From: Rhodospirillales bacterium
GTDB taxonomy: Bacteria; Pseudomonadota; Alphaproteobacteria; Bin95
Direction: 5' to 3'
NCBI GenBank assembly: GCA_008081395.1
Contig: VMCJ01000073.1
Coordinates: forward strand, 1-36,254
DNA: 36,254 nucleotides
The notes beneath the pieces are model-generated. The model saw only the letters and a program-made list of their open reading frames with translations, made no database searches and was not told where the DNA came from. The position numbers and the translations under genes are program-made. Every line of letters begins with the position of its first letter. The stretch's first letter is position 1. Below are positions 13,133 to 33,313 of this stretch, one piece after another.

Positions 13133-13720
13133 CTAAGCAGCTGCTTCTGATGAAGCCTCTTCTGCTGGACTAGCTTCTACACCTAAAGCTCCCTTAATTG
13201 CTGTAATAAAGTCCTCGGTCGCCTCTGTCTGCATGAGAGTGATTAACTGACCATCAATATGTAAAGGTGCATCGACTAAAGAGGCGCCAGCTTCTTGAAG
13301 CTTTTCTGCTACTGATTGGGGGGCACACACAGAGCGCCCTTTGGCAACTTCAGCATCCACAAGGAGCGTGGACGCGTCATCGGTAAGGGCAACTGGTTTA
13401 CCTGCCTCAAGCATCCCTTTTAGGACCCGCTTTGAGTGTGCGTTGCGCATCAATGTCTGCGTGGAACGCTCACCACCTGGAGTTAGGAGTAGATCAAATT
13501 GGCTTGGCAGTACGTCATTAATTTTTTCATCAACAAAGAAGTTATGCCCCCATCCTTCATCGTGCCATCCGTTGGCAACGCCTATTTCGGGTGAAACGAT
13601 TGAAGTTTGAGCGCCGGCGGCGATCAAGGCCTTTTGGACGGTAGTCATATGATGTTCGATGAAACCAGAAGCTACCATGATTGCAATTTTCTTGCCGGCG
13701 AGGGGTTTATTGCCCTGCAT
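13133..13720 (-). CDS. DJ-1/PfpI family protein lacking the nucleophilic cysteine
   Basis: A 195-residue class I glutamine amidotransferase-like (DJ-1/PfpI) domain. It begins 'GKKIAIMVASGFIEHHM', with the conserved acidic E22, and has 'LLLTPGGERS' at 77-86. At the nucleophile elbow, where PfpI or DJ-1 read like 'KPVAAICHGP', this protein reads 'KPVALTDDAST', so the Cys and following His are replaced by Asp114-Asp115. This resembles the non-catalytic C-terminal domain of large catalases. The C-terminus is an Ala/Glu/Ser-rich tail. The start has an excellent AAGGAGAT Shine-Dalgarno. Function unknown; a binding or structural role is more likely than protease or deglycase activity. Monocistronic, with its own terminator. 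Confidence 0.85.
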   Translation of the reverse strand: MQGNKPLAGKKIAIMVASGFIEHHMTTVQKALIAAGAQTSIVSPEIGVANGWHDEGWGHNFFVDEKINDVLPSQFDLLLTPGGERSTQTLMRNAHSKRVLKGMLEAGKPVALTDDASTLLVDAEVAKGRSVCAPQSVAEKLQEAGASLVDAPLHIDGQLITLMQTEATEDFITAIKGALGVEASPAEEASSEAAA

Positions 13721-30705: not shown

Positions 30706-31713
30706 ATGCAGGGAATTAAATTTGATTGGCTGAAGTCGTGTCCTGAGGGTCTGTATTGTCAGCCTGCGGACTGTTTCATCGATCCTGCAAGAGCAGTCCC
30801 TCGCGCTTTGATAACGCATGGGCATGCGGATCACGCACGACCAGGGCATGAAAAGGTTCTTGCAACAAAAGAAACCTTGAAAATTATGAAGGTTCGGTAT
30901 CCTTCAGATTTGGCTCAGCACCAACAATTAAATTTTGGTGAAAAAATTCGAATAGGCGAGGTTACTGTTTGGTTAGCACCGGCCGGACATATTCTAGGCA
31001 GCGCTCAGGTGGTAATGGAATATCAGGGGCAACGCGCTGTCGTGTCGGGTGACTACAAACGTCAAGCTGACCCTACAGCTATTCCTTTTGAGCCTATTAC
31101 CTGCGATCTTTTCGTTACCGAGGCTACCTTTGCGCTTCCAGTTTTCAGGCACCCAAAACCGGAATCGCAGCTTGAAAAGCTTCTTTCCTCCCTTCAAGCT
31201 TTTCCTGAGCGCCCTCATTTATTGGGGGTTTATGGGCTTGGTAAGTGTCAAAGAATACTGCTTTTGCTGCGGGACCTTGGCTTCGATGCTCCTATATACT
31301 TGCATGGAGCACTTGTTGGATTGACAGAACTTTATCGCTCAATGGGTTTTGACTTCGGTAATCTTTTACCTGTTCAAGGGGTTGCCAAGTCTGATTTATC
31401 ATCAGCTCTAGTATTAGCGCCACCATCCGCCACGATAGATCGTTGGTCTCGACGCTTTACCGATCCGCGCATAGGTATAGCTTCTGGCTGGATGCAGGTT
31501 CGTGGCAGGGCACGTCAGCGTAGGGCGGAGATTCCTCTGATAATATCTGACCATGCTGATTGGGATGACCTGCTTCGAACTTGTAATGAGACTCAGGCAG
31601 AAACTGTTTGGATTACTCATGGGCGGGAGGATGCGCTTGCATATGAGTTGGGCAAGCGAGGCCAAAAGGCTATTCCTCTTCGTTTAAGTGGTCGCCAAGA
31701 AGAGAGCGAATAA
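30706..31713 (+). CDS. DNA ligase-associated exonuclease (MBL fold)
   Basis: Metallo-beta-lactamase/beta-CASP type putative 3' exonuclease of the ligase-associated family, 335 residues. The metal motif 'HGHADH' is at 38-43, with further ligands in 'AGHILGSAQV', 'SGDYK' and 'SDHADW'. The family is known from its fixed pairing with an ATP-dependent DNA ligase, as here, and is thought to process DNA ends for repair. There is no strong Shine-Dalgarno before the ATG. The neighbouring Lhr-type helicase and PdeM-type phosphoesterase found in many such clusters are absent. Confidence 0.9.
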   Translation: MQGIKFDWLKSCPEGLYCQPADCFIDPARAVPRALITHGHADHARPGHEKVLATKETLKIMKVRYPSDLAQHQQLNFGEKIRIGEVTVWLAPAGHILGSAQVVMEYQGQRAVVSGDYKRQADPTAIPFEPITCDLFVTEATFALPVFRHPKPESQLEKLLSSLQAFPERPHLLGVYGLGKCQRILLLLRDLGFDAPIYLHGALVGLTELYRSMGFDFGNLLPVQGVAKSDLSSALVLAPPSATIDRWSRRFTDPRIGIASGWMQVRGRARQRRAEIPLIISDHADWDDLLRTCNETQAETVWITHGREDALAYELGKRGQKAIPLRLSGRQEESE

Positions 31714-33313
31714 ACGGAGGAAACCAATAGAAACTTTTTCACGCCTTCTTGATAGCTTGGTATTCAGCAGCTCAAGGAATGAAAAACTTAGGCTCATTCA
31801 GAAATATTTACGTATGACTCCGGACCCTGCACGGGGTTACGCTCTTGCAGCCTTGACTGGTGATCTAAAAATTCCCGCTGCTAAAAGCGCCACTATTCGG
31901 TCTCTTGTAGAAAAGAGGATGGATGCGGAGCTTTTTGCCATGTCCTATGATTATGTAGGGGATATGGCTGAAACCGTGGCTCTGATTTGGACAGATGTAA
32001 ACTATTCTCCTCCTAAATTTACTGAAGTTGTTGAGGAGCTACAAAAATCTAACAAAGCATCTGCTGCTATCGCATTAGAGAAATGGATGGACCGTTTGGA
32101 CACCACCGGGCGATGGGCATTACTGAAGCTTGCAACCGGAGGGTTGCGTGTTGGGGTGTCTGCAAGGCTTGCGAAGATGGCTCTTGCTCAAGAATTTGAA
32201 GCTTCTGTAGATGAGGTAGAAGAAATCTGGCATTCGATAGAACCGCCCTATGATGATCTTTTTAGGTGGCTGGAAGGGTCGGGGGAAAAACCTAATTATG
32301 CTTTAGGCGCAGGATTTAGACCTGTAATGCTAGCGAACCCCTTAGAGGAGGGGCTGCTCAGCCAGCTTGACCCATTGAGCTACGTGGCTGAATGGAAATG
32401 GGATGGTATTCGCGTTCAAGCCATTTCCAGGGATGGCAAGAAGAAACTCTATACCAGAACGGGTGAGGATATTGGGTATAGCTTTCCTGATATTCTTAAT
32501 AGCCTTGATTTTGACGCCGTGATTGACGGTGAGTTACTTATAAGGGATCAAAAATCAAATAAATTACAAGAGGCTGCGCCCTTTTCTACGCTTCAAAAAA
32601 GGCTAGGCCGTAAACGTCCCAGTACTAAAATTATTTCTGAAATGCCTGCTTTTATCAGAGCTTATGATCTTCTTTTTGAAGGTGAAGAGGATTTAAGAGG
32701 TTTTGCTTTTGAAGATCGACGCAAGCGACTGGAGATTTGGGCTAAGAACGCTCCAAGCACAATTGATATTTCGGCAACAATTCCCTTCAAAACATGGCAG
32801 GAGTTATCGAAGATCCGCTCTGAAGCGCGAGAAACCGGCATTGAGGGGCTAATGTTAAAGAGAAAATCCTCTTTCTACCTGCCAGGGCGCCCAAAAAATC
32901 AATGGTATAAATGGAAAAGGGAACCTCTCACTCTGGATCTGGTTTTGATGTACGCTCAACGGGGGCACGGTCGTCGGTCTTCGTACTACTCTGACTTTAC
33001 ATTAGGCGCTTGGAGCGACGCTGAGACGCTTGTTCCTGTTTGTAAAGCCTATTCTGGATACACAGATAAGGAATTAGTAAAGATCGATAAATGGGTGCGT
33101 GAGCACACAAATGATCGATTTGGCCCAGTGAGATCTGTTACACCGGGCCTCGTTTTAGAAATCGCATTTGACGCTGCTCAATATTCAAAACGGCATAAGT
33201 CTGGCGTTGCCCTGCGTTTTCCCAGAATAAAACGTTTAAGATGGGATAAACCGATAAGTGAGGCTGAAACACTTCAACATGTGAAAAGCCTAATCCAAGA
33301 ACCACAGTCTTAG
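31688..33313 (+). CDS. ATP-dependent DNA ligase (LigC-like, exonuclease-associated)
   Basis: Single-polypeptide ATP-dependent ligase of about 540 residues. It has an N-terminal alpha-helical DNA-binding domain (residues 15-200), a nucleotidyltransferase domain with adenylated K237 in 'EWKWDGIRV', 'IDGELL' (motif III), 'EGLMLKRK' (motif IV) and 'WYKWKRE' (motif V), and a C-terminal OB fold. The start is a problem: the coordinates use GTG at 31688, which overlaps the exonuclease by 26 nt, but the only Shine-Dalgarno (GGAGG 31716-31720) points to ATA at 31727, where relatives begin with Met before the same 'F..LLD.LV' sequence. The role is probably auxiliary repair alongside the NAD-dependent LigA. 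It overlaps the convergent Lrp gene by 4 nt. Confidence 0.92.
   Translation: MVAKKRANKRRKPIETFSRLLDSLVFSSSRNEKLRLIQKYLRMTPDPARGYALAALTGDLKIPAAKSATIRSLVEKRMDAELFAMSYDYVGDMAETVALIWTDVNYSPPKFTEVVEELQKSNKASAAIALEKWMDRLDTTGRWALLKLATGGLRVGVSARLAKMALAQEFEASVDEVEEIWHSIEPPYDDLFRWLEGSGEKPNYALGAGFRPVMLANPLEEGLLSQLDPLSYVAEWKWDGIRVQAISRDGKKKLYTRTGEDIGYSFPDILNSLDFDAVIDGELLIRDQKSNKLQEAAPFSTLQKRLGRKRPSTKIISEMPAFIRAYDLLFEGEEDLRGFAFEDRRKRLEIWAKNAPSTIDISATIPFKTWQELSKIRSEARETGIEGLMLKRKSSFYLPGRPKNQWYKWKREPLTLDLVLMYAQRGHGRRSSYYSDFTLGAWSDAETLVPVCKAYSGYTDKELVKIDKWVREHTNDRFGPVRSVTPGLVLEIAFDAAQYSKRHKSGVALRFPRIKRLRWDKPISEAETLQHVKSLIQEPQS
31716..31729 (+). promoter_or_regulatory. Shine-Dalgarno pointing to an ATA codon of the ligase gene
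   Basis: GGAGG (31716-31720) starts two bases after the exonuclease stop codon and is followed after 6 nt by ATA (31727-31729), in frame with the ligase. The spacing is ideal for initiation. ATA is a very rare initiator, so this is either a non-canonical start or a G-to-A change or error in an original ATG. Confidence 0.6.

Follow-up and report, generated by a model that had tools for sequence, protein, structure and literature searches.

The exonuclease and ligase genes

The window, the whole stretch of 36,254 nucleotides that was analysed, is contig 15 of the draft genome G000 (2.57 Mb in 176 contigs, 96% complete). It is compared here with the genome of a sister species in the same genus (G001) and with those of three further genus members (G002, G003 and G004). 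The features at the locus are as follows.

30706 to 31713, + strand: gene for the ligase-associated DNA damage response exonuclease, the 5' partner of the ligase gene (TIGR04122, 441 bits against a cut-off of 325)
31688 to 31690, + strand: GTG, alternative start candidate within the exonuclease gene, without a Shine-Dalgarno (SD) sequence; GTG at the same place in G001
31688 to 31726, + strand: basic extension of 13 codons implied by this GTG; 26 of its 39 nt overlap the exonuclease end
31711 to 31713, + strand: exonuclease stop codon TAA, 13 nt 5' of the ATA
31716 to 31720, + strand: SD sequence GGAGG, read from the sequence, with a 6-nt spacer to the ATA (−9.5 kcal/mol against the anti-SD)
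31727 to 31729, + strand: ATA, most likely the ligase initiation codon, aligned with the ATG or GTG start of relatives; ATA also in G001
31727 to 33313, + strand: coding sequence of the ATP-dependent DNA ligase (TIGR04120), 528 amino acids counted from the ATA

The ligase matches TIGR04120, the cisplatin damage response ATP-dependent DNA ligase, with 736.4 bits against a curated cut-off of 400, from position 2 to 526 of the 526 positions of the profile. The KWDGIR motif, which we take to be the nucleotidyltransferase KxDG motif of the ligase, is intact at residue 224 counted from the ATA in G000 and G001 alike. The ligase proteins of these two genomes are 71% identical and their exonucleases 73.7% identical. 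The dN of the ligase between them is 0.21, and its dS is saturated and not computable. Because the KWDGIR motif is kept, the frame is full length in both genomes and dN is 0.21 against a saturated dS, the ligase protein is intact and under constraint. It is hardly credible, for the same reasons, that the ligase gene is decaying through loss of its start, although the ligase (71%) and the exonuclease (74%) are both below the median identity of 86% for 347 ortholog pairs of at least 100 amino acids. The DEXH partner protein (TIGR04121), which is encoded on contig C17 of G000 and scores above its cut-off in all five genus genomes, also argues against decay. A frameshift or fusion between the exonuclease and ligase genes was considered as well, and no evidence for it was found.

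Conservation of the ATA codon and its surroundings

The first-pass annotation of this DNA reported a GGAGG sequence and a 6-nt spacer in front of an ATA codon located where members of the family have their initiating methionine. This arrangement is confirmed by the sequence and by the alignment of relatives. The GGAGG begins two bases past the exonuclease TAA. The GTG at 31688 is the sole canonical in-frame codon 5' of the ATA, and no in-frame ATG, GTG or TTG lies between it and the TTG at 31757. This TTG and the ATG at 31814 are the next canonical codons 3' of the ATA, and initiation at either of them would remove conserved residues. A GGAGG is found 16 to 4 bases 5' of the start at 21 of the 290 ATG starts common to G000 and G001, as compared with 14 of 1450 in-frame positions chosen at random inside genes; an SD energy of −9.5 kcal/mol or better is found at 22/290 and 25/1450 respectively. 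The GGAGG motif favours a start at the ATA about 4- to 7-fold and is not decisive alone. All SD energies given here assume the usual anti-SD CCUCC, from which the 16S end of the host may differ; no 16S match is present in the G000 assembly.

The codon aligned with the ATA was compared in 92 rows, which consist of the best 80 of 199 confirmed matches, these 80 being from named genomes, 11 loci from 14 family genomes (three of which gave none) and our own locus for a second time. The 11 family-genome loci include our own, and counting our own genome once leaves 91 distinct loci. The aligned codon is ATG at 79 of these, GTG at nine, ATA at two and CTG at one. The two ATA codons are those of G000 and G001; G002, G003 and G004 carry ATG here. 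Most simply, the ATA would have arisen once, in the ancestor shared by G000 and G001, from the ATG that the other three have kept. The GC content of G000 and G001 is 47-48%, and that of the sampled stretches of G002-G004 is 61%. The single CTG (L049:2001) belongs to the ligase of a Xanthobacteraceae MAG and is placed at the start position by extrapolating across three residues; the closest canonical codon in the same frame of this gene lies 32 codons 5' of the CTG.

Four-fold degenerate sites are identical between G000 and G001 at 13,548 of 37,734 positions (36%) overall and at 56 of 179 (31%) in the ligase gene, and 358 of 1181 ordinary internal ATA codons of G000 (30%) are still ATA in G001. 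Synonymous sites of the two genomes are near saturation, with an identity close to chance. The first-pass annotation raised the possibility of systematic consensus errors, in which case the true codon at 31727 would be ATG. The window does come from a fragmented draft of 176 contigs, but the same ATA is present in G001, and it is not an error there and here, because G001 was separately assembled and its synonymous sites have diverged from those of G000 nearly to saturation. This explanation is largely refuted and is very improbable.

The region from 31721 to 31743, which extends from 6 bases before the ATA codon to 14 bases beyond it, is identical to that of G001 at 22 of 23 positions. Among 80,160 interior windows, 2.5% are as conserved as this. 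The two other places in the ligase gene with this level of conservation overlie the KWDG and PGRPKNQW motifs. The same level is reached at 15 of 290 ATG starts, so that the stretch around the ATA is merely mildly unusual. The GGAGG is absent before the ATA of G001, where the SD energy is weak (−3.3 kcal/mol). None of the G001 partners of the 18 ATG genes of G000 with an SD energy of −9.5 kcal/mol or better is as weak as this, whereas 26% of 259 ATG starts of G001 are at −3.3 kcal/mol or weaker. The weak SD of G001 counts against the ATA, yet it does not disqualify it, because about a quarter of the ATG starts of that genome are equally weak or weaker. In G001 (L003), an ATG frame of six codons shares bases with the exonuclease stop codon (ATGA), and its terminal TAG in turn overlaps the ligase ATA (ATAG). 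This frame could aid re-initiation; its ATG is missing in G000.

The ligase could instead have moved its start upstream, such that the GTG at 31688 initiates translation, the protein carries a 13-residue basic tail and the old start is read as a plain isoleucine. In favour of this, a canonical codon is the safer assumption, G001 has a GTG equally far upstream and a second GTG two codons later, the frame is open in both genomes, and the ATA of G001 lacks a good SD. However, the absence of a ribosome-binding site for this extension (31688-31726), already pointed out in the first reading of the sequence, is borne out by an SD energy of −1.5 kcal/mol at the GTG in G000 and is repeated in G001 (0.3 kcal/mol). 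Only 7 of 259 ATG genes are as weak as this in both genomes. The GTG overlies the Ser-Gly codons (AGT GGT) of the exonuclease, which constrains 26 of the 39 extension bases. Conservation of the extension and of its GTG in relatives had been named beforehand as evidence against the ATA. The outcome is mixed. The GTG is indeed kept in G001, but only 7 of the 13 extension residues are identical, 26 of the 39 bases encode exonuclease, the residues just past the overlap differ (KRR in G000 and DWN in G001), and G002-G004 have ATG where G000 has ATA. The relatives outside G000 and G001 do not need the extension, since they have ATG, GTG or, once, CTG at this position. Initiation at the GTG alone is thus rather unlikely. 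Use of both codons, with some long form made from the GTG, some short form from the ATA and a low total expression, would fit the retention of each codon in both species; we consider it unlikelier still.

The alignment of relatives, the SD of G000 and the ATA shared with G001 point to the ATA at 31727 as the main start of the ligase, to which we assign a probability of about 0.62. The ATA start is real and probably functional, and AUA starts in bacteria, although uncommon, are already in print. Initiator tRNA is able to start at AUA with formyl-methionine, but with low efficiency. From the arrangement of the locus, we infer a coupling of the two genes, in which ribosomes that end the exonuclease at the TAA (31711-31713) would be held or re-recruited by the GGAGG, such that the ATA is set in the P site. 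The ordinary initiator tRNA would then start at the ATA with formyl-methionine despite the mismatch at the third base. Such initiation is expected to be inefficient and to be censored by IF3, so that the ligase would be produced at a fraction of the level given by ATG, and its amount may track IF3 activity, as that of the infC product does. The ATA start probably keeps the ligase scarce.

Unusual start codons elsewhere in the genus

The first-pass annotation likened the ATA of the ligase to the start of infC, and this comparison is apt. The E. coli infC gene autoregulates its own product. In this genus, infC itself has an ATA start preceded by (A)GGAG in each of the four genomes that yielded the gene, G001, G002, G003 and G004 (L093, L094, L095 and L096), with SD energies of −6.5 to −7.7 kcal/mol before the ATA. 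A stop codon is located two codons before this ATA in G002 and G004, where the next ATG follows 20 codons downstream. Because infC has ATA in all four members where it was found, it is very likely that ribosomes in this genus start translation at ATA. The G000 assembly yielded rplT but no infC; in G001, as read by eye, infC adjoins an apparent threonyl-tRNA synthetase gene and not rplT. A gap in the assembly is the likelier reason for the missing infC of G000. Loss of IF3 in G000 as the cause of the ATA was rejected, because G001 has infC and yet the same ligase ATA.

The ATA of the ligase had also been described as the second non-canonical start in 36 kb, with no place given for the other, and relaxed initiation in this organism had been proposed. 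A scan of the 37 open reading frames of the window reveals no other obvious case. Two surveys of G000/G001 pairs were made beyond the window. In the first, restricted to pairs of at least 100 amino acids, a canonical codon was sought between codons −60 and +22 relative to the position where the alignment begins. It was missing in 10 of 272 pairs, of which rlmH and an NAD-dependent epimerase gene were judged on reading to be real cases; the remaining failures have an ATG further in or are apparent antisense frames. In the second, 1.32 Mb of G000 was compared with 0.99 Mb of G001, and 406 of 846 pairs were left after overlapping frames were removed. These comprise 334 with a common ATG, 47 with another canonical codon near the start and 25 with none, and among the last group rlmH alone looks, by eye, like a real gene that needs another codon. 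The rule of this survey is lenient, in that the epimerase passes it by means of codons deeper in the gene and the ligase by means of its GTG.

The rlmH gene of G000 and G001 has TCG at the position concerned, followed by CGT or CAT and then ATT, and that of G003 has TCG CGT CTG, where G002 and G004 have ATG CGC CTC. A stop codon precedes the TCG position by five codons in G000 and by one in G003, and neither genome has a usable ATG, GTG or TTG for this gene; G001 has an in-frame TTG and GTG further upstream. An SD-like stretch is present before the TCG in G000 (−5.8 kcal/mol; L219, contig C25), G001 (−8.3; L221, C105) and G003 (−9.5; L218, C74), and the first shared near-cognate codon is the ATT or CTG located two codons after the TCG. 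The epimerase gene (L222 on C7 of G000 and L223 on C100 of G001) likely starts at a CTG. This codon occupies the same position in the two species, 5-6 nt past the stop codon of the upstream gene; G002 and G004 have an ATG further upstream.

These cases suggest an excess of genes without a canonical start in G000 and G001, which form a single genome pair considered without a control pair. The proposal of relaxed initiation is supported in part: rlmH and the epimerase gene appear to lack a usable canonical start in G000, but most of the surveyed genes share ordinary starts. A general loosening of start choice in the G000/G001 branch, as could be read from infC (ATA in G001), the ligase, rlmH and the epimerase, is possible rather than probable. 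If start choice is loosened in this branch, the output of the repair ligase would rise or fall with IF3 activity.

Comparison with known AUA starts

A gene finder restricted to ATG, GTG and TTG would place the ligase start at the unlikely GTG and would thereby give the protein a wrong N-terminus. If the ATA start is true, the few genes known to start naturally at AUA would include a DNA-repair enzyme, in a lineage whose infC also starts at ATA, and a testable tie between initiation fidelity and repair capacity would be obtained. In the openly accessible literature, we found neither an ATP-dependent DNA ligase with a non-canonical start codon nor an ATA start codon in Alphaproteobacteria.

Excerpts of PMC13009471 describe AUA starts of the infC, ccpN and citZ genes of S. 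aureus that were seen by ribosome profiling. According to these excerpts, AUA reporters yield about 10% of the AUG level in poor medium, and that of ccpN up to 30% in rich medium; the discussion of this paper states that IF3 modulates such starts. Replacement of the ATG of rpoS by ATA lowers RpoS up to 5-fold, as reported in an excerpt of PMC12864459.

With regard to the TIGR04120/TIGR04122 systems, the families, the neighbourhood and the motifs are the same at our locus, but the start codon is ATA here and ATG or GTG there. The infC gene resembles the ligase in that an AUA lies behind a good SD and is expected to be weak and sensitive to IF3. It differs in that no link between the ligase and IF3 is known, that the ligase has the GTG as an alternative and that its ATA occurs in only two of the five genus members. 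The ccpN and citZ genes of S. aureus, as far as the excerpts describe them, are ordinary genes with a natural AUA start, an SD and a lower yield, as the ligase would likewise be. Their starts were demonstrated by profiling and reporters and have a strong, extended SD, whereas that of the ligase is known from its sequence alone and has an SD that is not conserved. The ligase probably works like the AUA-start genes of the infC type, although its SD is not conserved together with the ATA. It is said to work like these genes, rather than to be a proven member of the group, because the SD is present in G000 (−9.5 kcal/mol) and weak in G001 (−3.3 kcal/mol).
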